Assembly (NCBI GenBank): GCA_913063265.1
Contig: CAJXZG010000001.1
Span: forward strand, 62,001 to 126,000
Direction of reading: 5' to 3'
Source: an uncultured Prolixibacteraceae bacterium
Lineage (GTDB): Bacteria; Bacteroidota; Bacteroidia; Bacteroidales; Prolixibacteraceae
DNA: 64,000 nt
Shown here: one piece after another, positions 30,192 to 59,844 of the stretch
How positions within the stretch are numbered: the first letter of the stretch is position 1
Layout of the letters: each line of letters begins with the position of its first letter
Made by a program: the position numbers and the translations under genes
Notes under the pieces: model-generated
What the model saw: only the letters and a program-made list of their open reading frames with translations
Database searches by the model: none
What the model was told of the DNA's origin: nothing

Positions 30192-32501
30192 ATGACCAAG
30201 ATCAAACCATTACTAATGTTTGTACTATTATTATTAATAATATATAGTTGCAAACAGGAACAGGACATATACAAAAGGCCAGAGTGGTTGGCGGGTAAAG
30301 TATATACTCAGGTAAAATCAACACCTGAGCTCTCAACTTTTGCCCAGTGTATAGAATTAACTGGCTACGATCAAATTCTTGATGTTTCTGGTAGTTATAC
30401 AGTTTTTGCGCCCACAGATAATGCTTTTAAATTGTATTTCGAAACAAATCCAAATTACAATTCAGTTGAGGATATTCCTCCTTCGGTTTTGGAAGAATTG
30501 GTTAAGTATCATATCGTTCAGAACCCATGGAGTAAGGATCAACTTCGAACTTTGGATGTTTATGGATGGATTGATACCTTATCAACAGATAACAACAAAC
30601 CAAGGGGATTTAAACGTGAAACACTTTTATTAAACGACGACCGAAAATATGGTATAAAAAGTGTTAAAGAGGGGAATGATTCAAAATTTGTTATTGTTGA
30701 TACTTTAACCACAAGTAAAACAAGAAAAGTAGTTACTGATTCCAGAAAGTATGTTCCCATTTTTTACAAGGAGTACTTTAATATCTACGATTTGAATTTT
30801 GGAGATTTTGAATTTTATTTTGACCGTCCGTTTTTGAATCCTGAAGATATTTATTTTGCCGGTGCGAGGATAACCAGTGAAGAGATTCCGGCAGAAAATG
30901 GTTTTGTTTATTCAATTGACAGGGTAGTTGAGCCGCTTGAAAATGCGGCACAAATCATTGAAAACAATTCTGGCTTTAATGATTATACTGATTTTCTGGA
31001 TGTTTTAAATCAGTTTCCTGATTTTGAATACAATCGGGAAAAAACATTGGATCAACCTGGTGCCGAAGAAGGTTTGGATGTAGATTCACTGTTCAACCTG
31101 ACTTATCCGGAATTAACTTTTGATTTTGGACAGGAAAGAACATCACCACCTTCGGGAACCTATGGATTACCAAGTAATGTAACAATCCGTTACCACCATG
31201 GATTAATGGCTCCAACGAATGAAGCATTTGAAACTTTTATTAACGAGTATATCAAAATTCCAAATGGTTGGGGAACCCTTGAAGGTGCACCGGAGAATAT
31301 TAAAAGGATAATTGCAAATACCTATATGTCGGTAAATACAATTTATCCAACTGATTTTAATACAGGATTTTATAACGGTGAATTGGATGTTGTTAAACTA
31401 AATGAAGCTGATATTGTTGAGAAAAAGTTTGGCAGTAACAGTACTTTTCTTGGTTTGAGAAATGCAGTTGTACCACGGGCTTTTAAAAGTGTAACCGGTC
31501 CTGTTTATCTGCAACGAGGTTATACAAAGGTAATGCTTGCAATTGAACAATCAGGGCTGTTATCGGCGTTAAAAAGAGATACGGAAGAGTACATGTTCTT
31601 TGTGGAAAACGATGCAAACAGCTCGCAGGACTCTTCTTTAATCTATAACGCTGCTACGGAAAATTTCTCAGTATTCCTGGTTTCTCCTGGTTCTTTTCAG
31701 GAGTATGTTTTAAGTATAAACGACTTACGAACTTTATTATTAAACCAGGTAGCAACTGCCAAAGCTGAAGGAATAGCAAGAAAAGAGTTTATTCCAAACC
31801 TTGCAGGAAACATAATTATTGTAAATAATGTTACAGGTGAATACTCTGGAACCGGGCCAACAACAAAAGGATACCGAGGCATAGAAGTTGAACCTGAGTT
31901 TCCAAGGGTACTTAGTGATGTTGTTGATAACGGAATTACTTACGATGTTCAAAACTGGTTTAGTTATTCAAGTCCTTCACTATTCAGCAAAATTTCAACA
32001 AGTTATCCGATGTTCCATTCTTTATTAAGAAAGGCCGGTTTAACAAACGATAAAGAATATCGCTATACGTTTATTACGGATAACGATTTTTATACTGTGT
32101 TTTTACCAGGCGATGATGCCATTACTGAAGCCGGACTTGCAGATTTACCGGTAGATGAATTAAGAAATGTTCTTCTGTTTCATTTCGTTCAGGGTGATAT
32201 GATTTTCACAGATGGGAAAAAACAACAGGCCTATTACGAAACTGCCAGAATAGACGAAAGATCAACCCAATATACTACTGTATTTACTTCAATGTATATC
32301 AAGCCCGGACTTGATATGATTCAAATTCCCAGAAAGGATGGAAGCAGTTATGTTGAGTTTGAAGAAGCGGATGAAACAACCAATATTTTAACCGGGGTAA
32401 CCGGAGGTACTGGTCAGGAAGTTTTCCCAATCATGTACAATAATGGTGTCATTCACGAGATAGATAAAGTATTAAATGTTGAAGAATTGGACATTAGGTA
32501 A
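30192..32501 (+). CDS. FAS1 (fasciclin) lipoprotein, four FAS1-like domains
   Basis: A 769-residue lipoprotein (LLLLIIYSCKQ, Cys about residue 20). FAS1-like domains lie at about 35-248, 252-430, 440-590 and 605-765. The H1 motif reads YTVFAPTDNAF in the first and YTVFLPGDDAI in the last; the closing H2-type strands read GFVYSIDRVVEPL and GVIHEIDKVLNV. FAS1 domains mediate adhesion or carbohydrate-linked binding in other organisms. Here the gene leads a SusC/SusD operon (40 to 50 bases before SusC), so a surface glycan-binding role is likely, taking the place of SusE/SusF. That role is inference. Confidence 0.88.
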   Translation: MTKIKPLLMFVLLLLIIYSCKQEQDIYKRPEWLAGKVYTQVKSTPELSTFAQCIELTGYDQILDVSGSYTVFAPTDNAFKLYFETNPNYNSVEDIPPSVLEELVKYHIVQNPWSKDQLRTLDVYGWIDTLSTDNNKPRGFKRETLLLNDDRKYGIKSVKEGNDSKFVIVDTLTTSKTRKVVTDSRKYVPIFYKEYFNIYDLNFGDFEFYFDRPFLNPEDIYFAGARITSEEIPAENGFVYSIDRVVEPLENAAQIIENNSGFNDYTDFLDVLNQFPDFEYNREKTLDQPGAEEGLDVDSLFNLTYPELTFDFGQERTSPPSGTYGLPSNVTIRYHHGLMAPTNEAFETFINEYIKIPNGWGTLEGAPENIKRIIANTYMSVNTIYPTDFNTGFYNGELDVVKLNEADIVEKKFGSNSTFLGLRNAVVPRAFKSVTGPVYLQRGYTKVMLAIEQSGLLSALKRDTEEYMFFVENDANSSQDSSLIYNAATENFSVFLVSPGSFQEYVLSINDLRTLLLNQVATAKAEGIARKEFIPNLAGNIIIVNNVTGEYSGTGPTTKGYRGIEVEPEFPRVLSDVVDNGITYDVQNWFSYSSPSLFSKISTSYPMFHSLLRKAGLTNDKEYRYTFITDNDFYTVFLPGDDAITEAGLADLPVDELRNVLLFHFVQGDMIFTDGKKQQAYYETARIDERSTQYTTVFTSMYIKPGLDMIQIPRKDGSSYVEFEEADETTNILTGVTGGTGQEVFPIMYNNGVIHEIDKVLNVEELDIR

Positions 32502-32550
32502 AAGCTTAGATCAATTTTCATAAAAATTAAACCAAAGGTTTGTGAATAAG

Positions 32551-35500
32551 ATGAAAAAAATCAAATCAGCCATATTTCTAGCTCTAGCACTGTTTTCCAT
32601 AACTACTGTTTTTGCTCAGGAAAAAACAATTATCAGGGGACGTGTTATCGATGCAATGGATAAATCTACGATTATCGGAGCTAACGTAGTGGAATATGAC
32701 AAAGACAATCGTGTTATTAACGGAACGATTACCAATGTAAACGGTGACTTTGTTTTAACAATGAAGGACCCTTCTAACATTGTAAAAGTTAGTGTAATCG
32801 GTTATAAGGCTACGGAAATTACCGTGGATCCATCAAAGGCAATTATGGTGGAGCTAGCTTCCGACGATGTTGCAATTGGAGAGGTAAAAGTAACCGCCGA
32901 AGCAAGAACTACAGGTGGATTAACTAACATTGCAGATCGTGATAAAGCCGGTGCAAGTGTAAGAATCGACCTGATGGAAATGCAGGATGCAGGTATTACC
33001 TCTGCAGCTGATGCACTTCAGGGTAAAATTAGTGGACTGGATATTATCAGTGCATCAGGTGACCCGGGATCGGGCTCGCAGCTTGTTATACGTGGTTTAA
33101 GTTCAATGGGTAACAACCAGCCTTTAATTGTTATTGATGGTATCCCTCAGTTTAAAGTTCAACAGGGAAGTATTGATTTAACGTCCGCCGACAGTGAAGA
33201 TATCAGTAACCTTATCAATATTGCACTTCAGGATATAAAATCAATCGAGGTATTAAAAGATGCGGCGTCAACGGCAATTTACGGTTCGCGTGGTGCCGAT
33301 GGTGTATTATTAATTGAAACCCATAAAGGTAGAATGGGTAAAGTACAATTCGATTTCCAGTATAAAAACAACAATAACTTCCAACCACCAGCAATTCCTA
33401 TGCTTAATGGTGATGAATACATTATGTTGCAGTTAGAGCAGTGGCACAATGCTTACGGTGTTTTTAACATGGATCCGGAAATTGCCTATGACCAGGACTA
33501 TGACCAGTTTCACAATTATTCAGCAAATACCGATTGGTTAAAAGAAATTACACAGGATGGAGTATCACACGACTACTATTTTAGTGTTTCAGGGGGTGGA
33601 GAAAAAACAAGATATTTTACTTCCTTTGGTTATCTAGATGAAGGAGGTACAACAATTAATACGGGCTATCAGCGGTTTTCTTCTCGTGTAAACCTCGACT
33701 ATTTCCTATCAAGAAATCTTCAGTTTCAGGTTAAATTTAACTATACATCAAGTTTAAGAGAAAGAAACCTTGAACTTCAGGGTAGTCACTGGAAAAGGAG
33801 AAATATCAGGGAGATGGCATACATTAAGTCTCCAAATATGAGTATTTATGAGCACGATTCGGAAGGAAATCTTACCGGCGAATATTTTACTCCAATTCAA
33901 AGTTATCAGGGTGACGGAATTACCTATTTTAACCCGGTTGCTGTTGCTGAACTGGGAAGGAGAGATGAGAACTTTAATAAACTCGAAAATTCGTTTATGC
34001 TGCAGTATCGTTTAAATGACATTATAACATTTCGTACAACGGTGTCGTTTCAGTATGGTGGTAATAAGAACAAGAGTTTCCTTCCATACAATGCCATTGG
34101 TGCTGATTGGATAGCATGGGATATAAATATGGCAGAAGAAAGCAATTCGCTTAATCAAAGCATTCAGTCTGAAACTTCAATGTTGTTTGGCTCTCCATTT
34201 AGAAACGAAGATCATGAAATGTCGGGAATGTTAACCTGGCAAACTGATGCAGCAAGCAGCGAATGGATGCATTTGCAGGGTAATAAAATTCCAAGTACAG
34301 ATATTCAGGATCCTGCAGTTGATGCAGGCAGAGGTTGGATTGGTACAGGTTCAAGCGAGAACCGTTTGTTAAGTGGTAAAGCAAACGTAAATTATAAGTA
34401 TAAGGACAGATACCTGTTTCAATCTAACTTAAGTTATGATGCCCACTCCTCATTTGGTTCAAATAACAGATGGGGTGCATTCTATGGTCTTTTTGCAGGT
34501 TGGCGTTTTTCAAGCGAGCCCTGGTTAAATTCATGGACATGGCTTGGCGAAAGTATGTTAAGGGTTAGCTATGGTGTTTCAGGTAGGCAGCCCAGCGATG
34601 TTTATGCACGTTTTGCTACTTACGAATCAACAGGTAGTGGTGCTTATATCCTGAATCCGGCAATTGCACCTACCAGCGTTCAGTTAAATAATTTGCGCTG
34701 GGAGACCATTTCATCATGGGATATTGGTGGAGAATTAAGTTTGTTTAAAGACAGGTTCTACCTGGAAGGTGATATCTATGAGAAAGTCACATCTGACATA
34801 TTATTTGATAGGTATGACATTCCATATTCTTCGGGATTTAGTCAACTGAGATATCTTAATGCCGGAGAGATGAAAAACTATGGTTGGGAATTAATGGCCG
34901 ATGGTAAAGTAGTTATGACCAAAGACTGGTTGTGGTCGTTAAATTTTAACGTTTCGCAAAACATCAACTCTTTTAGCAAATTACCGGAAAACTTTAATAC
35001 TGAACGTTCAACTTCAATCAGTAATAACCAATATCCGCGAAGGGTAGTTGAAGGAGAACCTATTGGATCATTCTTTGGATTCCGTTATCTGGGTGTTTAT
35101 TCTACAGATGCCGAAGCAGTAGCAAAAGATGCTGATGGAAATATTCTGTATGATGCAGAAGGAACACCAATTCCTATGAGATATACAGACAGTTACGTTT
35201 TTAAAGGTGGTGATCCGATTTATGAAGATGTTAACAAAGATGGAAAAATTGATATTAACGATGTGGTTTATATTGGTGACTCGAACCCGAATTTTATTGG
35301 AGGTTTTGGTTCAACACTAAAATATAAAAACTGGAACTTCTCAATGTCGTTTCACTACAGGTTAGGTTTTGATATTATTAACGGAATTGCCATGCAAACG
35401 CAGGGTATGAGAAACAAGGACAATCAAAGTAAAGCAGTATTAAATCGCTGGAGAAAACAGGGAGATGATTACGAAGGTATGCTTCCACGTGCTTACATGT

Positions 35501-35790
35501 GGCACCCTGCCAGTAACCTTGGTTCAGACAGATATGTTGAGCAAGGAGATTATCTGCGTTTAAATAATATTAAACTTTCGTACATGTTAAGTCAGGAATT
35601 GTGCAGAAAAATTGGTGTTAGAAAAGCCAATATTGCAGTTAGTGCACGTAAACTGATAACATGGACAAATTATACCGGTCAGGATCCGGAAGTTGGACAG
35701 AATGCCAGTGACCCGTTCTGGATTGGAGTGGATTATGCAAGAACTCCTCCTCCAAAGGTAATTACATTTAGTATTGGTGTCGGATTCTAA
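32551..35790 (+). CDS. SusC/RagA-family TonB-linked outer-membrane importer (1)
   Basis: Read from the ATG at 32551 (a GTG three codons earlier is in frame). About 1079 residues. Signal peptide (ending TTVFAQ), carboxypeptidase-regulatory-like domain (about 25-108, IIRGRVIDAMDKSTIIGANV), a TonB-box region (GEVKVTAEA), a plug (about 120-235, with LQGKISGLDIISASGDPGSGSQLVIRGL broken by the SusC-type SMGNNQPLIVIDGIP) and the barrel. SusC proteins import oligosaccharides with a SusD lid using TonB energy. The SusD gene follows after 6 bases. Confidence 0.95.
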   Translation: MKKIKSAIFLALALFSITTVFAQEKTIIRGRVIDAMDKSTIIGANVVEYDKDNRVINGTITNVNGDFVLTMKDPSNIVKVSVIGYKATEITVDPSKAIMVELASDDVAIGEVKVTAEARTTGGLTNIADRDKAGASVRIDLMEMQDAGITSAADALQGKISGLDIISASGDPGSGSQLVIRGLSSMGNNQPLIVIDGIPQFKVQQGSIDLTSADSEDISNLINIALQDIKSIEVLKDAASTAIYGSRGADGVLLIETHKGRMGKVQFDFQYKNNNNFQPPAIPMLNGDEYIMLQLEQWHNAYGVFNMDPEIAYDQDYDQFHNYSANTDWLKEITQDGVSHDYYFSVSGGGEKTRYFTSFGYLDEGGTTINTGYQRFSSRVNLDYFLSRNLQFQVKFNYTSSLRERNLELQGSHWKRRNIREMAYIKSPNMSIYEHDSEGNLTGEYFTPIQSYQGDGITYFNPVAVAELGRRDENFNKLENSFMLQYRLNDIITFRTTVSFQYGGNKNKSFLPYNAIGADWIAWDINMAEESNSLNQSIQSETSMLFGSPFRNEDHEMSGMLTWQTDAASSEWMHLQGNKIPSTDIQDPAVDAGRGWIGTGSSENRLLSGKANVNYKYKDRYLFQSNLSYDAHSSFGSNNRWGAFYGLFAGWRFSSEPWLNSWTWLGESMLRVSYGVSGRQPSDVYARFATYESTGSGAYILNPAIAPTSVQLNNLRWETISSWDIGGELSLFKDRFYLEGDIYEKVTSDILFDRYDIPYSSGFSQLRYLNAGEMKNYGWELMADGKVVMTKDWLWSLNFNVSQNINSFSKLPENFNTERSTSISNNQYPRRVVEGEPIGSFFGFRYLGVYSTDAEAVAKDADGNILYDAEGTPIPMRYTDSYVFKGGDPIYEDVNKDGKIDINDVVYIGDSNPNFIGGFGSTLKYKNWNFSMSFHYRLGFDIINGIAMQTQGMRNKDNQSKAVLNRWRKQGDDYEGMLPRAYMWHPASNLGSDRYVEQGDYLRLNNIKLSYMLSQELCRKIGVRKANIAVSARKLITWTNYTGQDPEVGQNASDPFWIGVDYARTPPPKVITFSIGVGF

Positions 35791-35796
35791 AAAATT

Positions 35797-37275
35797 ATGC
35801 TGAAGATGAGAAAGAAATTAAAATATTTGATAGTTGCATTGATGGTTTTTACACAAATCTCATGCGATAACTGGTTAGAGTTAATACCTCCTGGAGGATT
35901 AATCAGAGAAGAATTCTGGAAAACCAGAGCAGATGTGGATGCTGTTCTGATGGCTGCTTACAGCCAGTTTGCCAATTTGGATAGTAAACTGTTTATGCTT
36001 GGTGAACTCAGGGGAGATATGGTGATAGGCGGCCCACGTCAGGGGGGAAATGAAAGACAAATCTCTGAAAACAACATTTACCCGGACAATAATTTTACCG
36101 ATTGGGCTAATTTTTACAAGGTAATCAACTATTGTAACGAGGTAATAGTAAATGCACCAAAAGTTCAGCAAATAGATAATACATTTACCGATTACCAAAT
36201 GCAGGGATTGGTGGCAGAAGCTTATTTCCTTAGAAGTTTGGCATACTTTTATCTGGTCAGAGTTTATAACGAAGTACCACTAATTCTTTTGCCAAGTGAA
36301 TCGGATGACTCTGAATTTTATGTTGAAAAACAATCAGAAGAAACAGTATTAAATCAAATTGTACAGGATCTTGAAACCAATAGGCCATTTGCTCCTTCAG
36401 GTAGTTTTAAAACCATTGAACAGAATCTTGGAAGAGCTTCAAAAGCCTCATACGATGCTTTACTTGCAGATATAGCTTTATGGCGTTTTGATTATGAGAA
36501 AGTAATTGAACATGCATCAAGGGTAGAACAAAATGAGTTATTGGTATTAATGCCAAGTGGAAGGTGGTTTGAGTTGTTTTATCCTGGAAATTCATTGGAG
36601 AGTATATTTGAATTTCAGTTCGACCAAAGTCAGAGACAAAATAACGGCACTTACGGTTTAACAAGCAGAAGCAGCAATCGTTATAAGCCAAGCCAAAAAG
36701 CATTGGAGATGCTTAGTTTTAAGTATGCAAGCGAATTGGTAAGAGGAGAGGATTCTTCAATACGTAAATATGGTGAAGATGATTTTATAATCTGGAAATA
36801 TGTAGGACAGGCGCCTGATGGTCAATCAGAAAGATCAGGTTCTGACCAGCAAAGCTGCAACTGGATAGTTTATCGTTTAGCCGATGTAATGTTAATGAAA
36901 GCTGAAGCATATTCACAGCTGGGAAACTATCCACAGGCATTTCAAATAATAACCGAAATCAGAGACAGAGCAGGTGTAGCAACAAGAAATATTGCAAACT
37001 CACCTACTGCCTATGAAGATGCCATTTTGGAAGAAAGAGCACTGGAGTTTGCATACGAAGGAAAAAGATGGTTCGATTTACTACGTATGGGACGTCGAAA
37101 CAATTATGCAAGAAAAAATACACTTATCGAAATTATTGTGAGTAATGTTCCATCTACACAAAAGAGGATATTGGCAACTAAATTAACAAATCCTAATGGT
37201 TGGTACTTACCAATTTACGAAAGTGAAATAGAAAGAAACAGAAACCTTACTCAAAATCCATATTACGATTTCTAG
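35797..37275 (+). CDS. SusD/RagB-family glycan-binding lipoprotein (1)
   Basis: A 492-residue lipoprotein (signal with the Cys in QISCDNWLEL); ATGs at 35797 and 35806 are both possible. The SusD pattern is present: DNWLELIPPGG near the start, YFLRSLAYFYLVRVYNEVPLIL with TPR-like helices, and the C-terminal ILEERALEFAYEGKRWFDLLR motif with YLPIYESEIERN at the end. It binds oligosaccharides at the cell surface as the lid of the SusC importer encoded just upstream. Confidence 0.95.
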   Translation: MLKMRKKLKYLIVALMVFTQISCDNWLELIPPGGLIREEFWKTRADVDAVLMAAYSQFANLDSKLFMLGELRGDMVIGGPRQGGNERQISENNIYPDNNFTDWANFYKVINYCNEVIVNAPKVQQIDNTFTDYQMQGLVAEAYFLRSLAYFYLVRVYNEVPLILLPSESDDSEFYVEKQSEETVLNQIVQDLETNRPFAPSGSFKTIEQNLGRASKASYDALLADIALWRFDYEKVIEHASRVEQNELLVLMPSGRWFELFYPGNSLESIFEFQFDQSQRQNNGTYGLTSRSSNRYKPSQKALEMLSFKYASELVRGEDSSIRKYGEDDFIIWKYVGQAPDGQSERSGSDQQSCNWIVYRLADVMLMKAEAYSQLGNYPQAFQIITEIRDRAGVATRNIANSPTAYEDAILEERALEFAYEGKRWFDLLRMGRRNNYARKNTLIEIIVSNVPSTQKRILATKLTNPNGWYLPIYESEIERNRNLTQNPYYDF

Positions 37276-37324
37276 AAAAATTGTAGATACTAAAGTTTCT
37301 ATTTGGATTAAAAACTAAAAAAGG

Positions 37325-38878
37325 ATGAAAAAGATATTTTATATAATAAGTTTACTGGCATTTGCAGTTGCGGTAAATTCCTGTAAAGAACCGGAAAGGG
37401 TAGCAGGTTTTGAGGATGCTGAACAAAATACCATTTACGATTACGTGGTCAACGATGAAGCTTTTTCTGATTTCAAAGCTATTTTGGAAGTGGGCGGATT
37501 GGATAAAACATTAAGTGCGTACAATCCCAACGGTAACGGGTATACTTGTTTTTTACCCAGTAACGATGCAATAAACAATTTTATTCAAAACACTGAGGGT
37601 ATTTCATCGATCAACGATATATTGAATAATCCTGATTTTGCTGCTGCTTTTGGCAGGTATCATGTATTGAATATGCTGGCACACACTCAGGATTTTCCAT
37701 TTGGTGCTTTCCCGGAACCGACCTTATCAGAGGATTATTTAACGGTTAGTTTTATTATTGAAGAAGATACTTCTTATTATAAAATCAATAACCAGGCGGC
37801 AGTAAGTTATCCGAATATTGAGGTATCAAACGGGTTTATCCATGAAATTGAAACTGCCCTTGAACCTATTACATTTACAAGTTATGGTTGGCTTCAGGCA
37901 AATTCAGGTTTTAGCATTTTTAAAGAAGCTATGGAATTAACCGGAGTGAAAGAATTAATTGATTTTAATGTAAAAGAGTTTGAAAACATTCAGCCTGTTA
38001 CACTATTGGTTGAGCCGGATTCAATTTATCAAAAACGAGGAATTAACAGTGTTCAGGATTTGGCAAATTTAATTAGTCCTGATGACCAGGATTATACGAG
38101 TATCACAAATCCGTTGTTTAACTACTGTTCTTACCACATATTAACCGGGGGAAGATATATTAACGATTTTGAAGGACAAGCTACCAACTATACAACACTT
38201 TCTGAAATTCCACTAAATATTAACGGTAATGGAAACGACTTGTTGATTAACAGGGGAAAACAGGTATTTGATACAATTATTTCCGGAATTGATACAACTA
38301 TTATAGACTACATCGGATTCTTGTATGATGAAAGTAATGTTAATTCACAATCTGGTGTAATTCACCAAATCAATCAGATAATGGAACAGGTTCAACCCTC
38401 AAGGGCAATTGTAACTTTTGAATTCTGGGAAGAACCATTGTTAAATGAATACAGAAGAGAGCCGGGAACTTATTTAATTGAAGAAAAAGAATCCTTGTAT
38501 CATATTGATTGGGAAGGTGTTGATTTATTCTTTATTAAGCGTGGAGAGAACATGTCGGCCTGGAGTAACGATTATCTTGAAATGAACGGCGATTTCCGGA
38601 TTTCTTATGAAATTCCAAAGGTTGTTCAGGGGCGATATGAAGTATTCCTTGGCGCAGAAAGATACAATTCAGAAAATGCTTTGATTGAAGTATTTATTGA
38701 CGGTAAAAAGATTAGTAGTTTAATTGACCTTTCTCAGGGAGGTTCAGCGAATAATCCATTCCAGAGAATTGAACTGGGAACTGTTGATTTTAAACGTTAC
38801 GCTACGCATACGGTTGAAATAAGACCTATGATTCCCGGAAGGTTTTTATGGGACTATATAAGATTTGAACCATATTAA
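37325..38878 (+). CDS. FAS1 lipoprotein with C-terminal CBM-like domain
   Basis: A 517-residue lipoprotein (VAVNSCKEP, Cys about residue 20). Two FAS1-like domains lie at about 35-180 (YTCFLPSNDAINNF, then NGFIHEIETALEP) and 185-350 (ending SGVIHQINQIMEQ). The C-terminal part (about 360-517) is a beta-rich domain with GRYEVFLGAERYNS and a final LWDYIRFEPY, the closing strand pattern of CBM6/35-like jelly rolls. FAS1 plus a CBM-like tail on a lipid anchor fits a surface glycan-binding protein. It follows SusD by 49 bases in the same operon. Confidence 0.88.
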   Translation: MKKIFYIISLLAFAVAVNSCKEPERVAGFEDAEQNTIYDYVVNDEAFSDFKAILEVGGLDKTLSAYNPNGNGYTCFLPSNDAINNFIQNTEGISSINDILNNPDFAAAFGRYHVLNMLAHTQDFPFGAFPEPTLSEDYLTVSFIIEEDTSYYKINNQAAVSYPNIEVSNGFIHEIETALEPITFTSYGWLQANSGFSIFKEAMELTGVKELIDFNVKEFENIQPVTLLVEPDSIYQKRGINSVQDLANLISPDDQDYTSITNPLFNYCSYHILTGGRYINDFEGQATNYTTLSEIPLNINGNGNDLLINRGKQVFDTIISGIDTTIIDYIGFLYDESNVNSQSGVIHQINQIMEQVQPSRAIVTFEFWEEPLLNEYRREPGTYLIEEKESLYHIDWEGVDLFFIKRGENMSAWSNDYLEMNGDFRISYEIPKVVQGRYEVFLGAERYNSENALIEVFIDGKKISSLIDLSQGGSANNPFQRIELGTVDFKRYATHTVEIRPMIPGRFLWDYIRFEPY

Positions 38879-38972
38879 TTGAAAGAAAATGAGAACGATG
38901 AAAACTCGGAAATCTTTTTTTAAAATTCCGAATGGATTCGAAAAAGATATGAAAACTAACAATTTTAATAAG

Positions 38973-40511
38973 ATGAAATTCAAACTAAAAATATTATTAA
39001 TTGGATTAATAATTATAAGTGCAGCCGGATGTAAAAAGGAGTGGGATGAGCACTATAATGTTTATCCTGAAACCGTTGATGAAAACGTTTGGGATGTAAT
39101 TCAAGCCGATCCAAAATTTTCAAGTTTTATTGAAATTGTAAAACAGGCACAAATGGATACTTTGTTTGAATCGGATATTGCCTATACAATTTTTGCACCA
39201 ACCAACGATGCGATTTCTAACTTCGAAGGATTAAGTGAATTTGATGATGTGATACTGGCCTATCATTTTTGCTCGCATTTCATAAATGTCAGTAACATTC
39301 AGGGAAAACGTCAGGTTCAGACTTTAACAGAGAAATTTGCATTGTTCGAAAGACAGGGAAGTAAAGTAACCATTGATGAGATTGAGGTTCAGGATGAAAG
39401 CCCTTTATACAGAAATGGCAAATTCTTTACCATGGGAGAGGTAATCGAACCCAAACCAAACCTATACCAATATTATGAATTTACCAATCCGGTATTAAGT
39501 AATTATATCGATACACAGGATACAATAATTATTGACAAGGAAAAAAGTAAGCCTTTGGGATTTGACCCTGATGGAAATACAGTTTATGATACTGTTTCTA
39601 TTATTGCGAACAAATTTGAAATGAAATATTTCCCTGTAAAACAAGAGTTTAGAAATCTTTCGAGTACAATTGTTTTTCCAAAAGAAGAAGATTACCGCAG
39701 TGCGCTTGATGTTATGGCAGATGCGCTTGGAGATGATTATATTGACTATAACGATATCCCCATCGATTGGCAGGAGGAAATTTTAATACCGCACTTACTT
39801 TATCAGGGTGTATTCCTAAACAGATTAGAACCTGAAGAGTTTGAATGGAAATCTCCCGAAGATACATTAAAGCTTTTAAATGTGTTGGGTGATAGTGTTG
39901 TTATTACTTATGTTCCGACAGATAAAGCATTATGCAGCAACGGTTACGCTTATAACTACGAATCCTTTGAAATTCCTGACTCATTGTATCAGGGAGGTAC
40001 AAAAATGGAAGGAGAAGACCTTTTACATCCAACCGGATTAAACAAATATGCCTGGAAAGACAGCGTTTATGCGAGCAGCGATATTTCTTTAATACCTTCA
40101 CAGGAGTTAATTCAGGGTGCGTCAAACGATTCCATTATCAGGGTTAATTTCCCAAAAGGATACAGTGGCAACTTTTCACTGGAATTCAAAAGTCCAAAGC
40201 TTTTCCCAAGAAAATACCAGATGGTTATAGCTACTCACATGGACATCGGTGGAATTTTCGACATTTATGTTAATGATGAACTGGTAAAGACATTTGACTA
40301 TTATCAGTACATAATTTATCGTGGAGTGCTGTTCAGCGTTACGGGTGAAAGATTTATCCCAAGAGGAAGATTTAACAGGTTCGATATGTATGTCGATAAT
40401 CTGGTTGAATACGGTAACGCAAAAATTAGAATAGAATACAAAGGGCCAAGCTTTGTAGCAAGCAATGGTTTGGTAATTGACTATATTGATTTTATACCTG
40501 CAGTAGAATAA
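38973..40511 (+). CDS. FAS1 lipoprotein with C-terminal CBM-like domain (second)
   Basis: Several in-frame ATGs exist (38889, 38949, 38973); the one at 38973 puts the lipoprotein signal at the N-terminus (MKFKLKILLIGLIIISAAGC). About 512 residues. A clear FAS1 domain (about 30-160, YTIFAPTNDAISNF) is followed by a divergent second one (about 190-345). The C-terminal 150 residues are beta-rich, with GGIFDIYVNDELVKTF and a final VIDYIDFIPAVE, matching the closing strand of the preceding FAS1 protein. The same binding role is inferred. It lies only about 90 bases after its neighbour and is a likely old duplicate. Confidence 0.85.
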   Translation: MKFKLKILLIGLIIISAAGCKKEWDEHYNVYPETVDENVWDVIQADPKFSSFIEIVKQAQMDTLFESDIAYTIFAPTNDAISNFEGLSEFDDVILAYHFCSHFINVSNIQGKRQVQTLTEKFALFERQGSKVTIDEIEVQDESPLYRNGKFFTMGEVIEPKPNLYQYYEFTNPVLSNYIDTQDTIIIDKEKSKPLGFDPDGNTVYDTVSIIANKFEMKYFPVKQEFRNLSSTIVFPKEEDYRSALDVMADALGDDYIDYNDIPIDWQEEILIPHLLYQGVFLNRLEPEEFEWKSPEDTLKLLNVLGDSVVITYVPTDKALCSNGYAYNYESFEIPDSLYQGGTKMEGEDLLHPTGLNKYAWKDSVYASSDISLIPSQELIQGASNDSIIRVNFPKGYSGNFSLEFKSPKLFPRKYQMVIATHMDIGGIFDIYVNDELVKTFDYYQYIIYRGVLFSVTGERFIPRGRFNRFDMYVDNLVEYGNAKIRIEYKGPSFVASNGLVIDYIDFIPAVE

Positions 40512-40785
40512 ATTTTAAGTAGCAAAAACCAGTAGTTGAGACTAACCTATGAAACGAGCATTACAAAATTTGAAAAACAGTAAAAGCATTAAAAGCGAGT
40601 TCCATGAGTTACAACTGAAGGCAAACAATTTTAGACGAATGAAAAGAGATTTAAACATGATAGCTTGCTACAATTGCATTAACAAAGTAAAGGATATGCT
40701 TTTATATAGAAATTCAGGCAATACAACGTCAATTGTTCGGCAAAATATGTCAGGGCATAAGCGTTCAATGCAAATAGATATTATA

Positions 40786-43700
40786 ATGAATAAAAAATTG
40801 TTATTCGCAAATTTCCGAAAGATAACAGTCATAACTTCAATGCTTGTTTTATTTATTTCAACGGCATTTGCACAGGATACAATTCTTGTGAGAGGAACGG
40901 TTGTTAATGGTATAAATAATCCTGTATCAAATGTATCTGTAGGAGTAGAGGGATCATTTGAATTACCTGTGATTACAAATGATGCTGGAGAGTTTGAAGT
41001 AAAAACCTTATCCGGCGAGGTTTGGCTAAATGTTTCTCCATCAGGTGGATACAAAGGGAAAAGAATTTACCTTAATAATCGCACAGAGCTTAAAATCTAC
41101 CTGACATCAAATGATGTTGCATCTGGAGAAGATAAGCTTTCTGTTTTATCTCAGGATTTTTTAAAAAGGAATATGATTTCATCTTTTACATCAGTAAATT
41201 CAGGTGAAATAAAGAAAACACCGATAATAACCTTAAATCAGTTTTTTCAGGGAAGAGTATCTGGAATGAATGTAATTAACCGTTCAGGAGATCCGGCCAG
41301 TGGAGCTGTTTCTTTTTTACGAGGTGTAAATTCCATCAACTCCAACAACGCACCTTTATATGTAGTTGATGGTATTCCGGTAATGTCTCCGAATGTATTT
41401 GGTTCAAATCTCGATGGATTTGAATACAATCCTTTGTTGAGTATTAACCCGATTGATATATCGAGCACTGTTGTTGTAAAAGATCCGGTAATTACTTCAG
41501 CATATGGTTCAAAAGCTTCTAATGGATTGGTTTTTGTGCAAACTTTAGATCCAAGTGCAACACAAACTGTTGTTGAATTAGATTTACGAGGTGGATATTC
41601 TCTGGCTCCGGATAATCAGATTCCACAAATGAACGGGGCTCAACATAAAACTCTGATTAGTGAATTATTATTTTCATCAGGTACACCGGAAGAATTAATA
41701 ATTGAAGAATATCCAAACTTGTATTTAACACCTGATGAGGACAGGTATAAGGATTACCAGCACAATACCAATTGGCAGGATAATGTTTTTACCAATGCAG
41801 CTTTTACCAATGTAAACGTCAAAGTAAAAGGTGGTGATGAAATTGCAAGATATGGTTTGTCATTTGGTTACATGAATAGCAACAGCATAATTAAAAACTC
41901 GGGTTACGATGGTTATAATTTAAGATTTGTAAGTCTGCTGAACATTTTTACCTGGTTAAAAATGAATGCCAGTGTATCTTTAAGTTATAACAATTCAAAA
42001 CTTACCGAGTCGGCAAGAGTAACTCAAACCAGTCCATTGTATGCTGCGTTAGCCAAATCACCTTTATTAAATCCTTATCAATATGATGACGAAGGAAAAG
42101 AACTTACAGCTTTAAGTGAACCTGATGAGTTAGGAATAAGTAATCCTCAGGCAATCATTGATAATTATGAAGCCAAGAATAATAATTTTAACTTTGTTTC
42201 TACCCTGGGTTTCTCAGCCGAGTTAAAAGATAATTTAACTTTAAACTCCAACTTCGGTATTACATATAATGTATTGAAAGAGCAAATATTTATGCCTAAC
42301 AGGGGGATGGAGGAATATTACAATAAAGAAGCACACAATGTTTCCAAAGCAACAAACAATTCCTTAAACTCATTTTATAATAACACATACCTGAAGTATA
42401 GCAAAGCATTTGGAACAAATCATATGTTAACTTCAAACACAGGTTTTAATATTTTAACCAATAAGTTTGAGTTGGATTGGGGATTAACTAAAAATGCTCA
42501 CGAGAATGATGAGTACCGAATGATACAGGATGGGCAGTGGAATTTGCGTGATATGGGAGGTGCTAACCGCTCATGGAACTGGATATCTTTCTATGAAAAT
42601 TTAACCTACGGATTTAAAGATAAATATCTTGCATCAGTAACTTTAAATCTTGATGGTTCATCAAGAGTTGGTGAAAATGCTGACGGCACATTTAAAATCG
42701 GAGGTGCACCATTTGGATTGTTCTATTCTTTTGGTGGCGCATGGAGAATTAATAATGAATCCTTTCTGAAAAACAAGCCTAAACTGGAGGAATTGAAACT
42801 CAGATTATCCTATGGCCTTTCAGGTAATGATGACATTGGAGAAGCAAACTCAACAGAATACTATAATGCAGTGAAGTTTCGCCAAACAGCTGGTTTAGTG
42901 CCCGGAGTTGTTCCAAACGACAAACTGACTTATGAAAAAATATCACAGCTAAACGGTGGTTTGGATATTGCAATGTGGGCAAACAGGTTCCAGGCAAGTA
43001 TCGATGTATTTCAATCTACCATTGATAATATGTTAATTTATGCACCACTGGAAGCGTATTTTGGTTTCGATTTTCGTCCTGAAAATGGAGGAAAGATGCA
43101 GAATACCGGATTTGATTTGAGCTTATTTTTTAGGTTTGTAGACAGGCCTAACTTTAAATGGGACGTTCAGGCAACTTATTCTCAGGTTAAAAATGAAGTG
43201 CTAGAAATAAAGGGTGATAAACTCGTAACTAAATTAAAAGTTGCTGAAATAGTGAATATGCCTGGTGAACAAGCCAATAGTTTCTATGGCTATATTTATA
43301 AGGGTGTATATTCTTCGGCAGAAGAAGCAGAACAGGCTAATCTGGTTAATGCCAGGTATCAGAAGTATCAGGCAGGAGATGTGATTTATGAAGACATTTC
43401 CGGTCCAAACGGAACTCCGGATGGGGTAATTAACGATCACGACAAAACAGTTATTGGTTCATCGATGCCGGAAAGTTTTGGTGGTATAGGAAATACTTTT
43501 ACATACAAACGGTGGTCATTAAATGCTTTTGTACAGTTTACAAATGGTAACGAGGTATTTAATTACCTGCGTTACACCAATGAAAGTATGATTGGATTGG
43601 GTAACCAAAGCAGTAAAGTACTTAACCGCTGGCAAACAAATGGTCAGCAAACCGAAATACCAAGAGCATTGTATGGTGACTACATTGGTAACTCAGATTT

Positions 43701-43956
43701 CTCGACCCGTTGGATTGAAGACGGATCCTATTTGAGATTGAAAAATGTATCATTAAGTTACACCATTCCTAACGAATGGCTGGTATTCAAAAATGCGCAG
43801 TTCTATATTTCAGGAACAAATCTTCTGACCTTAAGTAATTATTTAGGTTACGATCCTGAATTTGCATTTTCAAGTGCGCACTTTATGCAGGGAATTGATT
43901 ACGGATTGACACCACAAGCGCGTCAGTTTGTTATCGGAATAAAACTAGGTTTATAA
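40786..43956 (+). CDS. SusC/RagA-family outer-membrane importer (2)
   Basis: The signal peptide begins at the ATG at 40786 (MNKKLLFANFRKITVITSML, ending FAQD), giving about 1056 residues. The frame stays open back to an ATG at 40549, 79 codons earlier, without obvious domain; whether it is translated is unclear. Carboxypeptidase-like domain (VRGTVVNGINNPVSNVSVGV), then a plug (LNQFFQGRVSGMNVINRSGDPASG, NNAPLYVVDGIPV) and barrel ending FVIGIKLGL. The segment between, SGEDKLSVLSQDFLKRN, lacks a clear EVVV-type TonB box. It pairs with the SusD gene 19 bases downstream. Confidence 0.93.
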   Translation: MNKKLLFANFRKITVITSMLVLFISTAFAQDTILVRGTVVNGINNPVSNVSVGVEGSFELPVITNDAGEFEVKTLSGEVWLNVSPSGGYKGKRIYLNNRTELKIYLTSNDVASGEDKLSVLSQDFLKRNMISSFTSVNSGEIKKTPIITLNQFFQGRVSGMNVINRSGDPASGAVSFLRGVNSINSNNAPLYVVDGIPVMSPNVFGSNLDGFEYNPLLSINPIDISSTVVVKDPVITSAYGSKASNGLVFVQTLDPSATQTVVELDLRGGYSLAPDNQIPQMNGAQHKTLISELLFSSGTPEELIIEEYPNLYLTPDEDRYKDYQHNTNWQDNVFTNAAFTNVNVKVKGGDEIARYGLSFGYMNSNSIIKNSGYDGYNLRFVSLLNIFTWLKMNASVSLSYNNSKLTESARVTQTSPLYAALAKSPLLNPYQYDDEGKELTALSEPDELGISNPQAIIDNYEAKNNNFNFVSTLGFSAELKDNLTLNSNFGITYNVLKEQIFMPNRGMEEYYNKEAHNVSKATNNSLNSFYNNTYLKYSKAFGTNHMLTSNTGFNILTNKFELDWGLTKNAHENDEYRMIQDGQWNLRDMGGANRSWNWISFYENLTYGFKDKYLASVTLNLDGSSRVGENADGTFKIGGAPFGLFYSFGGAWRINNESFLKNKPKLEELKLRLSYGLSGNDDIGEANSTEYYNAVKFRQTAGLVPGVVPNDKLTYEKISQLNGGLDIAMWANRFQASIDVFQSTIDNMLIYAPLEAYFGFDFRPENGGKMQNTGFDLSLFFRFVDRPNFKWDVQATYSQVKNEVLEIKGDKLVTKLKVAEIVNMPGEQANSFYGYIYKGVYSSAEEAEQANLVNARYQKYQAGDVIYEDISGPNGTPDGVINDHDKTVIGSSMPESFGGIGNTFTYKRWSLNAFVQFTNGNEVFNYLRYTNESMIGLGNQSSKVLNRWQTNGQQTEIPRALYGDYIGNSDFSTRWIEDGSYLRLKNVSLSYTIPNEWLVFKNAQFYISGTNLLTLSNYLGYDPEFAFSSAHFMQGIDYGLTPQARQFVIGIKLGL

Positions 43957-43975
43957 CAGCATTATTTTGATTGAT

Positions 43976-45832
43976 ATGAGAACTTATAATAAATACACAT
44001 CTATCGTTGGTATCTTCCTGATATCACTGCTCTTCTTTTCATCGTGTAAAGAATTTCTAAATCCCGAACAGGAGATTAATATCACCAAAGATAAACTATA
44101 TGAAGATTGGTATGAATACAGATCTATGGCAATGGGATTATATGGAATCCAAACCGATCTTGTAGAACAGCTGGTTATTTTAGGTGAACTGCGGGGAGAC
44201 TTGATGAAGATCACGGATAATGCCGACGCAGATATGGTGGAAGTATATAACTTCAACATTTCTAAAGAAAATAAGTATGCGCAACCAACCAATTTCTTTA
44301 GATTGATTACAGCCACAAACAGTTTTATAACAGAGTTAAAGACAAGACGTCCTGAAGTACTTAATCCGAAAAGTCCTGTGAATAACTATGACAGGCTATA
44401 TGGTGAAGCATTATGTATGAGGGCATGGGCCTATTTTAATGCAGTTCGTATTTATGGCAAAGTTCCGTTTCTTCCTGAATCAATTACTTCTATTGAAGAA
44501 GTAAATAAATTTCTGGAAACTCCGGGCACATATCTTGATACAGTAAAGATTGTTTACGGTACCAATGGGTATGATAATGATACTTTAAGGAATGTACAGG
44601 TTGAACTGGAAAAACAGTATTACGATATTGATTTGGTAATCGACCACTTTACCAACGAACTGGAAAATAACGTAAAATCAGTTGGTGTAAACCATTATAT
44701 TGAAAATCAGGACCAAACATGGGAAGTCACTATTTGGAATAACTATGCATATCATGCTTTGTTGGGAATTATGTATTTAACCGAAGGAGATTTGGCAAAA
44801 GCAGCAAATAACTTTGAATTTATTACAGAAACCAATTCAGAAAATTATCGTTATCAGATTGATAATAGTTTTGCCAACGGAAACTGGAAGCAAATATTTA
44901 CCAATATTGACATAAAGGAACATGTTTTTACCTTGTATTTTAATAAAGGGGAATACCAGCAAAACAGATTCCAGGAAATGTTCGAACCACGGGAACCGCA
45001 TAAATATATGCTGAAACCAACCCGTAGTGCAATTTTAAAATGGGAAACTACGTGGGATAATTACAGACTTGCGGTTAACAATACTCAACCCTGGTTGACA
45101 AGAACTGTATGGAAAGGGTTACCTGGCGATTTTTACAGGGGCTATGGTGCATCTTATACATATATGCAAAATGGTGTAGAAATTCCTGAAATAAATGTCT
45201 TCCAGTCCTTGTGGTTAAAATCAGAAGAGGATTATCGTACCTCAGCTTTACTTGTTGAAGACGCAGATACAGTTATTTATAAGTATTCTATCAATAAAAA
45301 TGTATTCGATCAGGATGCTAACTTTATTGTATACAGAGCTGCGGGAATTCACCTTTGGTTAGCCGAAGTATATGTATGGTGGAAGTTTGAGCAAAATGGC
45401 GTACCTCGGGAGTTTACATCAAATGCTGTAAATATTATAAATGACGGTTCTCAGTATAATATTAATAGTAACCGTGAACAACTTGGTGTACGTGGCAGAG
45501 TTGGATTTGGTGGTGCTACGGATGGTATCAGACCCGGAAACATTAACTATACCCGTCATCCGTTCACAAACGAAGTTACAGGATATATTGATGTGTCCGG
45601 AGATTTCCATGCATTACAGTTGTACCTTGAAGATCAGTTGATCGACGAAAGGGCCAGAGAACTTGCTTTTGAGGGAGAACGTTTTTATGATTTAATGCGT
45701 GTTGCAAAACGCAGGAATGATCCTTCTTTCCTTGCAAAACAAGTTTCAGAAAAATTCCCGGTTGAAAGACAAAGTGAGATTTATAATTTGTTGCTCGACG
45801 AAACTAACTGGTATATTAACTATTTCGATTAA
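43976..45832 (+). CDS. SusD/RagB-family glycan-binding lipoprotein (2)
   Basis: A 618-residue lipoprotein from the ATG at 43976 (LISLLFFSSCKEFLNPEQE, Cys about residue 24). It is longer than the first SusD (about 490), with inserts in the middle that include long loops around residues 180-260 and 310-400. SusD features: YGEALCMRAWAYFNAVRIYGKVPFLP and the C-terminal LIDERARELAFEGERFYDLMRV. It is the lid partner of the second SusC and ends the + strand transport operon; a terminator follows. Confidence 0.94.
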   Translation: MRTYNKYTSIVGIFLISLLFFSSCKEFLNPEQEINITKDKLYEDWYEYRSMAMGLYGIQTDLVEQLVILGELRGDLMKITDNADADMVEVYNFNISKENKYAQPTNFFRLITATNSFITELKTRRPEVLNPKSPVNNYDRLYGEALCMRAWAYFNAVRIYGKVPFLPESITSIEEVNKFLETPGTYLDTVKIVYGTNGYDNDTLRNVQVELEKQYYDIDLVIDHFTNELENNVKSVGVNHYIENQDQTWEVTIWNNYAYHALLGIMYLTEGDLAKAANNFEFITETNSENYRYQIDNSFANGNWKQIFTNIDIKEHVFTLYFNKGEYQQNRFQEMFEPREPHKYMLKPTRSAILKWETTWDNYRLAVNNTQPWLTRTVWKGLPGDFYRGYGASYTYMQNGVEIPEINVFQSLWLKSEEDYRTSALLVEDADTVIYKYSINKNVFDQDANFIVYRAAGIHLWLAEVYVWWKFEQNGVPREFTSNAVNIINDGSQYNINSNREQLGVRGRVGFGGATDGIRPGNINYTRHPFTNEVTGYIDVSGDFHALQLYLEDQLIDERARELAFEGERFYDLMRVAKRRNDPSFLAKQVSEKFPVERQSEIYNLLLDETNWYINYFD

Positions 45833-45894: not shown

Positions 45895-48800
45895 ATGAAA
45901 AAACAATGCTTCATAATTCTTGTATCCTTATTCACCCTCATTTTGGGATTTAAAATATCAAAGGCATCTGATATAATTAATATTGAAGCTTTAAACAGTA
46001 AAATCATTTTACTGCATTTTGATGATGGTTATGTTCGTTATCATAAAAAGGGGGAATCGAGGCAAAATGAATGGGTGGTTTCAGAACCTTTGGTTGTTGA
46101 AAAGGCAATGATTGCCAATAATTATCAAATTGTAAGCAGTGAAGGATATTATTCGAATCCACAAAATCCTGGGAAAGTTACACGTAAATCAAAAGGAACG
46201 GAGTATACATGGCTTTGCGAAAACTGGTCTCAGCTTGTCGGTTGTGTTAATACTTCTCCCGACCATGCAAAAGAACACTGGATTTATCTGCATTTGAATG
46301 AACCACTGGAAATGGGTAAAAAATACACCATTTTAACCAATGATATTGCCGGAAACGGGAATGAATGGGAACTTAACTTTACCCTTGAAAAAAACAGAAC
46401 TGAGGCAGTGCATGTAAATATTATAGGTTATGATTCGCATGCACCAAAAAAGTATGGATATGTTTATCACTGGAGTGGTGAAGCCGGCGGAATTGATTTC
46501 TCAAATTACGAAGGAAACAACTTTTATTTAATTAATACAGAAACAAACGAAAAAGCATTTTCAGGGACCTTAAAATTCAGAAAGGACAAATACAATGCTG
46601 ATACCAGACAGAGCGATACACCTAACGGAAACTATTCGGGTGCAGATGTGTACGAGTGTGATTTTTCAAATTTTAATGTTCCTGGAGAATATATACTTGC
46701 CGTTGAAAGTATTGGGCATTCTTTCCCGTTTAAAATTACTAAAGATGTCTACCGTCTTCCTTATTATACCTCAATACGCGGATTATATCATAACAGGTCG
46801 GGCATCGCACTTGAAGAACCTTTTACGGAATATACAAGGCCTGCACCTCATAATCCCCTGGAGACTCCCGGATTTTCAGGAAAGTTATTTTATACAACTT
46901 CGCGATTTATTGATTGGGAAGATCTTAATAATTCACCTGAGGATAAACCGGCAATTGAAGAGGGTATTCTTGGACCCATAAACACTTGGGGCTGGTACCA
47001 GGATGCCGGCGACTGGGATGGTTATTTCTGGCATATGAAGGTGCCGGCGATTTTAATGTTAACCTGGGAAATTGCTCCTGAAAAATTTGCCGATGGAGAA
47101 CTGAACCTACCAGAAGGAACAAATGGTATTCCTGATATTCTTGACGAGGCCAGTTGGTTGATCCGATTTTTTTATCGCACCCGTCATGAAATTATGAACA
47201 AGGGTTACGGCACAGGAGGAGTTGGTTCCCGTGTAGCCCCCGATTGGTTTGGGCATGCGGAAAACGGAACACCTTCATATCTGGATAATGGAAAATGGAT
47301 CATTTCCGGAGAGGATCCATTTACTACCTATTTTTATGCCGGACTTGCAGGGCATTATGCTTTGGTTCTGGATAAACTTGGTATTGAAGATCCTCACGGA
47401 ATTGATTGGAAAAAAGAAGCTGAAGAAGCTTTTGAATGGGCTCGAAATAATACAAAAGCTACAGATACAAATCCGGCGAATGTACATGACTTCAAGTTAA
47501 CTGATTTTGAATTGTATGCTGCGGCCTCTTTGTTCCGGTTAACAGGAGAAAAGGAGTATAAGAATACGATACTTGAAATTGGAAGCAGTATAAATTCATC
47601 GGATGTTTTGGATGAATACGAAAAGTTTGGGGTGTACGCTTTAGTTACAGGAAAAGAAAAAGTTTTAGCGGATGATGCTTTTTTATCAAAGTTAAAGGGA
47701 GCGATTATAGCTTCAGCCGACCAAAAATATTCAAGTATTAATCAACGTGCCTGTCGTTTTGGCGGTAATATCTGGTTGCCAATGGTTGTAGGGCAGGGTA
47801 CAACACCACGTGTTTTTGAAATGATGCTGGGGCATTTTGTTTCAAAGGATTTTGCTCCTTCTAAAACCAGTAATTATTTGGCGGGAATATTTACAACAGC
47901 AGATTATTTTCTGGGTTGTAATCCGCTAAATCAGGCATATATTACCCATGTTGGAGTTCGTTATCCGGAACGTGTCCTTCACCTGGATTCGTGGTACAGC
48001 GAAACCGGGGAAATAATTCCCGGAATTACCCCTTACGGTCCCTGGCGGGATCAGGGCTCAGGACCCAATGGTCCATGGGATGTAAGGTGGCCGTACCAAA
48101 CTCTTTTTCCAAAAGGAATTGAAAACTGGCCGGGACATGAACGCTGGTTTAACAACTACACAACACCCTCGAATGCCGAATTTACTGTACATCAGAATAC
48201 AGTTCTTTCTGCTGCAGTTTATGGGTATTTGTGTGATGTGCCGGATGGTACTTTCGTCCCAAATAAAAAACCTTCAATAGAAATTCTTAGTCCGGAACAA
48301 AGTGACGAAATTAAAGGAAACATTGAAATCAAAATAAATGTAAGTGATCCAAACGGTGAAAATGATATTGCCTGGGTAGAGTTTTTTAATGAATGGCATA
48401 AAATAGGACAATCGAACCAACCACCTTACACTTTTACCTGGAAAAAGCCATCATACGGAGATGCAAAAATATCGGCAAAAGTTATTGATAAGAGTGGATT
48501 TTCAACTAACTCTGACACCGTAAATATTCTTGTAAAACCGCTAAACTATAATTCTTCGATTGTTGTAAGCGACAGTATTACGGGAGAGTTAATGAAAAAC
48601 TGTAAAGTGACGGTTAACGGACAATCAATATTAACAGATGACAATGGTAAAGCTACATTTGACAGTATTTCAGGGTTGATGAATATTTATATTGAAAAAA
48701 CAGGATACAATATTATTGAACTAAATGAAATAAGTGTTTACAGCGATACAACTCTCTATTACAACCTGGCTCAGAAAGAAAAAGAAACAGTTTTTATTTT

Positions 48801-59828: not shown

Positions 59829-59844
59829 AACTTTTATATTATTA

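Follow-up and report, generated by a model that had tools for sequence, protein, structure and literature searches.

Surface glycan-binding proteins (SGBPs) of Bacteroidota are too divergent in sequence for easy recognition and are mostly identified by gene context. Tandem SusCD xylan systems of gut Bacteroidota combine two SusCD pairs per locus with an extra surface binding protein and are not known to contain FAS1 proteins. A two-module surface protein from a cellulose cluster of Bacteroidota possesses a mainly cellulose-binding C-terminal module; its cluster lacks a SusD (SGBP-A) homolog, and FAS1 or fasciclin is absent from the text of the corresponding paper. For the levan utilisome, PMC7618045 describes an SGBP-B (SusE/SusF-type) outer-membrane lipoprotein of solved structure that is encoded with SusCD and places two N-terminal domains at SusC, followed by a C-terminal binding domain. 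Here we report a seven-gene cassette from an uncultured Prolixibacteraceae bacterium (assembly GCA_913063265.1), located in a stretch of 64,000 nucleotides of contig CAJXZG010000001.1, hereafter the window. The cassette resembles the levan system, as far as described in that source, in that lipoproteins with two membrane-proximal domains and a C-terminal domain of sugar-binding type (FAS1-B, FAS1-C) are encoded directly after SusD. It differs in that FAS1 domains replace the Ig-like ones, and in combining two distinct SusCD pairs with as many as three FAS1 proteins in a fixed order. Our best reading of this locus, and a reasonably probable one, is an old machine of two SusCD pairs whose surface glycan-binding proteins use FAS1 as their scaffold.

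The window's list of open reading frames (ORFs) gives the order FAS1-A, SusC1, SusD1, FAS1-B, FAS1-C, SusC2, SusD2 on the + strand (30192-45832, Table 1), with intergenic gaps of 40, 6, 49, 10, 37 and 10 bp. This is the operon that the initial annotation had proposed; all ORFs are present, and Pfam and NCBIfam agree. Fasciclin (PF02469, curated cut-off 22 bits) is detected with 97.4 bits in FAS1-A, 65.1 bits in FAS1-B and 41.8 bits in FAS1-C. Both SusCs pass the TIGR04056 cut-off of 368 bits and are directly followed by a SusD-family gene, and both SusDs pass the PF07980 cut-off. A lipobox-like Cys, according to a crude rule, is located at residue 20 of FAS1-A (CKQEQD), residue 20 of FAS1-B (CKEPER) and residue 48 of FAS1-C (CKKEWD), in agreement with the earlier designation of all three as lipoproteins; across cassettes the same rule holds for 22 of 24 A, 19 of 22 B and 12 of 14 C proteins. 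The annotated start of SusC2 (40549) is probably too early and the true start downstream, because a signal-peptide-like stretch starts near MNKKLLFANFRKITV. The position assigned to the FAS1 proteins, that of SusE/SusF, fits FAS1-B and FAS1-C, directly after SusD, and does not fit FAS1-A, which lies upstream of SusC1.

Including the window, 37 distinct cassettes with a FAS1-A head and a second SusC were found, 35 of which extend to SusD2. The second FAS1 gene before SusC2 (FAS1-C by position) is present in 24 and absent in 13 of them. Over 207 intergenic gaps, the median is 18 bp and the longest gap 209 bp. A contig search with FAS1-B yields 45 loci, 16 of them with cassette order, either intact or interrupted by a frameshift or the end of a contig (L031-L033, L036, L037, L039, L041, L043, L045, L048-L053 and L056). 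Their sources are metagenome-assembled genomes (MAGs) or genomes named as Prolixibacteraceae, Marinilabiliales, Cytophagales, Salinivirgaceae, Bacteroidales and Bacteroides sp., furthermore a horse-faeces Bacteroidaceae and Alloprevotella sp. oral taxon 473. The other 29 loci comprise nine FAS1-B relatives and 20 weaker matches, the latter ordinary FAS1 genes by gene order. The nine relatives (L030, L034, L035, L038, L040, L042, L044, L046 and L047) originate mostly from Prolixibacteraceae MAGs and sometimes occur twice per stretch; L042 adjoins another TonB receptor. Among viral contigs, FAS1-B gave 11 pattern matches, none of them a relative.

FAS1-A delimits the cassette more sharply. With the best three candidates per genome scored, its profile matches at full length in 7 of 295 Bacteroidia genomes, in at least 11 places, and five more genomes possess partial matches only (60-69 bits). 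SusC directly follows in all 11 full-length places, nine of which were traced to a second SusC; of the remaining two, one stretch ends inside FAS1-C (L133) and contig C130 (L135) apparently continues on C99 (L024). These two contigs of the source genome appear to overlap by five residues inside the SusC1 gene, giving another cassette. Among 101 relatives, source included, 25 contain FAS1-A matches at E 1e-60 or better in 48 places, not all full length, with up to 6 such matches per genome. The context of 20 hand-picked places among the 48 shows SusC as the next gene in all 20; 18 are intact to SusC2, L147 is frameshifted and L158 lies at a contig end (L146 duplicates L037, L149 duplicates L043, and L147 and L050, alike in length and layout, apparently represent one contig). 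In 198 genomes of the phylum FAS1-A occurs in six, the source genome and five of the same class. The FAS1-B tail profile matches in only 4 of 198 Bacteroidia genomes, source included, and is therefore a poorer marker than FAS1-A.

The 21 Fasciclin matches of the source genome are distributed over the window cassette, the cassettes on C84 (L023) and C130/C99 (L135, L024), genes resembling FAS1-B at the ends of contigs C72 and C161, two paired genes on C11 and three genes without nearby SusCD. The C11 pair includes the exception among FAS1-A-like genes: L025 8216-9997 (593 aa, profile positions 5-548 of 715) has no adjoining SusCD. A broken gene was considered and rejected, since the stop codon at which the match ends is that of the gene itself. 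It is convergent with a tail-less FAS1-B-like gene (L025 10039-11160), and the pair is perhaps a cassette remnant.

The cassette is a fixed, co-inherited unit with position-specific SusC groups. In a tree of 95 SusC and SusC-like rows, 41 position-1 SusCs fall on one side of a branch with SH-aLRT 95, and 39 position-2 SusCs, the divergent L075 included, on one side of another branch with support 58. Fifteen other SusC/TonB rows fall apart from both groups, and the three labels require no more than the minimum of 2 changes. In the SusD tree, 21 position-2 SusDs form one group (100), with that of L075 outside. Pairwise distances of FAS1-A, SusC1, SusD1, FAS1-B, SusC2 and SusD2 correlate with r 0.95-0.98 over 18 cassettes, which none of 2000 permutations reaches. 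Species descent alone could explain part of this correlation, but the components of the divergent cassettes of the source genome group with different outsiders, the window with L043 and C84 with L037 and its kin. When the SusC1 profile is applied to the 295 Bacteroidia genomes (best two candidates per genome scored), the 7 that carry FAS1-A at full length, and no others, yield 1271-1627 bits; the highest score outside this set is 739 bits.

Coincidental proximity, or hitch-hiking of genes that are not functionally coupled, was weighed against a genome survey. In an even sample, Fasciclin matches occur in 22 of 60 other Bacteroidota genomes (23 of 61 with the source genome), and 13 of these positive genomes are among the 14 of the same class. 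In 31 stretches from the 13 Bacteroidia genomes, with genes called by home-built SusC, SusD and FAS1 profiles, 18 of 42 FAS1 genes adjoin SusCD (17 directly, one, L091, with an intervening gene). The remaining 24 are unlinked, the point in favour of chance. Nevertheless, 9 of 32 loci are linked, whereas random placement would be expected to put 1.2 within 3 kb of a SusC (2.0 with SusC counts doubled in four genomes, each at least 31); the simulated P is at most 5e-05. Together with the fixed order, the co-inheritance and the co-occurrence of SusC1 and FAS1-A, this linkage strongly disfavours mere adjacency, which is rejected and retains a practically negligible probability. Linked loci are confined to 4 of the 13 genomes, so the association is a trait of particular FAS1 subfamilies and not of FAS1 generally. 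The enrichment of FAS1 genes near SusCD raised in the initial annotation is thus found at the level of loci, and does not extend to a general rule.

The FAS1-B model (AlphaFold2, pLDDT 83.6, alignment of 22 sequences) consists of two FAS1 domains (residues ~34-182 and ~186-355) and a beta-sandwich resembling carbohydrate-binding modules (CBMs, ~360-517), the bounds being those of the predicted model. Fold comparisons were scored as VIA Z, and a Foldseek list was made as well. Residues 19-356 resemble tandem FAS1 proteins such as periostin 5yjg (Z 21.4, 282 aligned, root mean square deviation (rmsd) 7.4 A), and a single TGFBIp FAS1 domain (2ltb) aligns with Z 19.2 over 135 residues at 2.0 A. 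In fold, the pair is therefore like the TGFBIp/periostin FAS1 arrays (Z ~20-21, ~280 aligned, rmsd 7-8 A), which, in contrast, are animal matrix proteins without an importer partner. The tail (358-517) is best matched by module 761-901 of a Paenibacillus xanthan lyase (6f2p; Z 15.0, 132 aligned, 2.4 A) and by MiXBM (7ehg; Z 14.8, 125 aligned, 2.0 A, 20% identity), followed by CBM4-2 (Z 12.6, 137 aligned, 2.9 A), CBM35 (Z ~12) and CBM6 (Z 11.5). These xanthan-binding modules share the fold, but are enzyme-borne instead of FAS1-lipoprotein-borne and show no significant sequence match. PspCBM84 and MiCBMx bind xanthan according to PMC10049358, and we take 7ehg to be MiCBMx; the ligand of the FAS1-B tail need not be xanthan.

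CBM6/35-like, beta-rich C-termini had been claimed for the second and third FAS1 proteins. Superposition of the FAS1-B model on CBM6/35 bears this out as a beta-sandwich match. By sequence, the signals for membership of the CBM84, CBM35 or CBM6 families are mixed, with 79% for the FAS1-B tail against five CBM6/35 domains in hhalign and no CBM match by Pfam or in the PDB profile search described below. FAS1-C, with FAS1 at 64-189, a weak second FAS1 stretch at 281-354 (home-built FAS1 hidden Markov model) and the terminal motif IDYIDFIP, follows by its profile relation to FAS1-B. Its tail matches the FAS1-B tail with 94.5% in hhalign (16 of 25 tails, 9 omitted by hand), with 76.8% for 12 of 14 tails and with 65.8% for the seven window-type tails, against 0.1-0.2% for FAS1 controls. 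As it scarcely matches the five CBM6/35 domains (5%), the FAS1-C tail is CBM-like via FAS1-B and not directly. In FAS1-A, Fasciclin domains are the only Pfam matches, and a role as CBM-type binder is unsupported. Two of the three FAS1 lipoproteins thus appear to end in a domain of sugar-binding type, and FAS1 is probably the scaffold on which plant polysaccharides are captured. Median identity over 22 FAS1-B rows is 20.9% in the tail versus 29.9% and 24.1% in the FAS1 domains, a variability that fits a stalk meeting a conserved partner and a tail meeting changing ligands, and is suggestive only.

Under the scaffold reading, the seven gene products would form one cell-surface machine, in which two SusC/SusD importers of position-specific subtypes cooperate with FAS1 lipoproteins as putative subunits for scaffolding and for capturing glycan at the surface. 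FAS1-B, and probably FAS1-C, would act like an SGBP. FAS1-B repeats the plan of the levan SGBP with FAS1 domains, and from this we infer docking of the FAS1 pair on SusC and glycan binding by the tail. The lipid anchor and tandem FAS1 domains may constitute a stalk near the SusC lip, with the C-terminal CBM-like sandwich grappling the polysaccharide and passing glycan to surface enzymes and importer. For FAS1-A, binding of sugar is less likely than a bridging or scaffolding role, and it may connect both SusCDs. A stricter version, an obligate complex in which SusC1D1 and SusC2D2, each SusC belonging to an exclusive group of its own, stand side by side via a FAS1-A array and in which FAS1-B and FAS1-C act as arms for grappling, is doubtful. 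If true, it would represent a new outer-membrane import architecture, a hetero-utilisome taking two products, or two ends, of one polysaccharide, one that was copied and then adapted to mannan/glucan, pectin and further glycans.

Several observations weigh against the scaffold reading. A shared fold by itself shows no function, and the FAS1-B tail has a fold that also occurs outside CBMs, as the insecticidal Cry proteins in the Foldseek list show. A profile search of the Protein Data Bank (PDB) with this tail yields no match at E up to 10, and its single-sequence comparison with MiXBM is not significant (E 0.46). The FAS1-C model is poor (pLDDT 56.6, 7 sequences), and the profile of the FAS1-C tail retrieves from the PDB only Cas1 (E >0.7) and no solved CBM; the 5% of its direct CBM6/35 comparison belongs here as well. 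Nine of the 24 loci found with FAS1-B at E 2e-14 or better lack SusCD in the stretch. Because FAS1 served as the bait for the cassettes, few other SusCs are included in the tree. Some of the scanned flanking genes, a hand-picked part, have no Pfam match (L036, L053, L164, L161).

No CBM domain is found in FAS1-B and FAS1-C by Pfam at E up to 1. In nine further cassette FAS1 proteins scanned at E up to 0.1, Fasciclin is found in eight, the L056 FAS1-C being without it. FAS1-B of L080 has sub-threshold matches to Endotoxin_C (0.0011) and DUF5108 (0.0026), and several cassette FAS1 proteins show weaker sub-threshold matches to the unrelated DUF1967, DUF4926, Ins_allergen_rp and Methyltransf_3. 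Among seven FAS1-C tails, one matches Endotoxin_C (0.035), and four other weak families occur once each.

FAS1 domains are known for adhesion (review PMC6032426), and the FAS1 proteins might instead be surface adhesins that attach the cell to other cells nearby or to insoluble plant fibre, sharing regulation with the importers and not physically part of them. The FAS1-B relatives without SusCD, some with GH2, fucosidase-CBM6 or GH3-CBM6 in the stretch, would suit such adhesins, as would the cellulase and mannanase types of the window's enzymes with type IX secretion system (T9SS) tails. An adhesin, however, would need neither a constant location between two SusCD pairs in 37 cassettes nor such close tracking of SusC1 and SusC2, and we regard adhesion alone as unlikely, if the most serious competitor to a role of the FAS1 proteins as importer-bound glycan binders.

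Table 1. Cassette genes and neighbouring genes in the window (GH, glycoside hydrolase; values after family names are E-values unless given in bits)
Feature	Position	Strand	Characteristics
GH3 enzyme	24349..26637	+	upstream of cassette; PF00933 1e-69
FAS1-A	30192..32501	+	769 aa lipoprotein, cassette head; PF02469 9.1e-28, 3 stretches
SusC1	32542..35790	+	TonB-dependent importer, position-1 group; TIGR04056 686 bits
SusD1	35797..37275	+	lid lipoprotein; PF07980 7.4e-36, PF14322 3.2e-14
FAS1-B	37325..38878	+	517 aa lipoprotein; PF02469 9.1e-18, 2 stretches
FAS1-C	38889..40511	+	540 aa lipoprotein; PF02469 1.5e-10, 1 stretch
SusC2	40549..43956	+	position-2 group; TIGR04056 616 bits
SusD2	43967..45832	+	lid lipoprotein; PF07980 2.3e-07, 31.2 bits vs cut-off 23.1
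GH9 with CelD_N, Big_7, T9SS tail	45895..49503	+	PF00759 9.7e-18, PF18962; 62 bp after SusD2
GH30-like enzyme	49500..50801	-	PF17189 9.8e-4 and XynC-like 4.6e-08, both below cut-off
DUF3667 gene	50830-51912		between GH30-like and GH26 genes
CBM35-GH26 mannanase, T9SS tail	51929..55852	-	PF02156 1.3e-69, PF16990 1.3e-16; PDB 3wdq beta-mannanase 1e-89
SASA esterase, F5/8C, GH5, Big_2, T9SS fusion	55893..59855	-	1320 aa
GH5 endoglucanase-like	59845..60804	-	PF00150 1.4e-56; PDB 5i2u 2.4e-118
GH5-CBM6-T9SS, endoglucanase H-like	60984..62975	-	PDB 4u3a 2.1e-87

The window cassette is accompanied by glycoside hydrolases (Table 1), and both PDB-matched GH5s correspond to endoglucanases or cellulases. 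Six further cassettes are of the window type (L043, L153, L154, L155, L156 and L159; L158 is cut and omitted), with SusC1 64-79% and SusC2 57-70% identical to those of the window. Window enzymes recur with 48-70% identity beside five of these six, i.e. GH5 with 66-70% (L043, L153, L154), GH26 with 70% (L153) and 48% (L155), GH30 with 66% (L155) and GH5-CBM6 with 48-51% (L154, L159); the L156 stretch is without any. For the window copy, the most likely substrate is mannan, glucomannan or glucan with beta-1,4 linkages.

Other cassettes possess different neighbours. In G007 the neighbours are GH106, two GH28, polysaccharide lyase (PL) domains of PL4 type, GH2, GH115 and a SASA esterase, a pectin-like set, and in G033 they are a GH2, an FGGY kinase and an aldolase-dehydrogenase, which we take to be a rhamnose-type set. 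An alpha-1,3-glucanase-like protein adjoins the cassette on C84 and GH43 that on C99; elsewhere GH116, GH2 and DUF4838 are found, and a sulfatase in a Cytophagales. Sensor genes of hybrid two-component system (HTCS) type lie beside two cassettes (L157, L162). With these varied neighbours, the cassette has the appearance of an import platform open to re-targeting; a glycan as the putative cargo of the SusCD pairs is argued for only by the enzyme neighbours.

RagAB imports peptides, and a cargo other than polysaccharide (peptides, glycoprotein fragments or metal complexes), bound by the FAS1 proteins, would agree with the upstream genes of L036 and L053 without Pfam match and with the L056 stretch, which contains the cassette alone. 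The many cassettes flanked by GH5-CBM6, GH26, GH30, GH9, GH115, GH106 and GH28, as well as PL4-like, GH116, GH2 and GH43 enzymes, and the CBM-type fold of the FAS1-B tail render this cargo improbable, and clearly more so than adhesion.

Among the titles listed from the open-access literature searched (subscription papers and preprints lie outside it), none concerns FAS1 proteins in SusCD loci, and the fasciclin mentions checked are reference-list, review or adhesion text. Within this reach, an SGBP built from FAS1 domains and the fixed double cassette appear undescribed; the FAS1 fold, the protein families and the logic of polysaccharide utilisation loci are already known. With such an SGBP class, these genes would acquire a testable function, the utilisome concept would reach an old cassette with two importers, and FAS1 domains would have a prokaryotic role beyond general adhesion. 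The FAS1-A/SusC1 pair provides an easy genomic marker of the double cassette.

Some further features were observed in and beside the cassettes. The CBM35-GH26 protein of the window also bears the start of a pectate-lyase-like beta-helix (PF12708, residues 515-594), an unusual fusion. Proteins with CotH kinase domains flank two cassettes (L024 11987-14164, L032 3-2564). In G357, an extra gene with two FAS1 domains (495 aa, L150 from 15572) follows SusD2 of an otherwise ordinary cassette. Small relatives with a single FAS1 domain occur in 4 of 295 Bacteroidia genomes, all of family f2 (G002, G302, G277, G326); G033, which is also listed, matches only within its FAS1-A. They represent a second arrangement of FAS1 and SusCD, with proteins of 229-268 aa, some longer, directly after SusD (L076-L079, G002). 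The SusCD context is taken from G002, where the arrangement is found twice as a tandem SusC-SusD-FAS1-X-SusC-SusD-FAS1.

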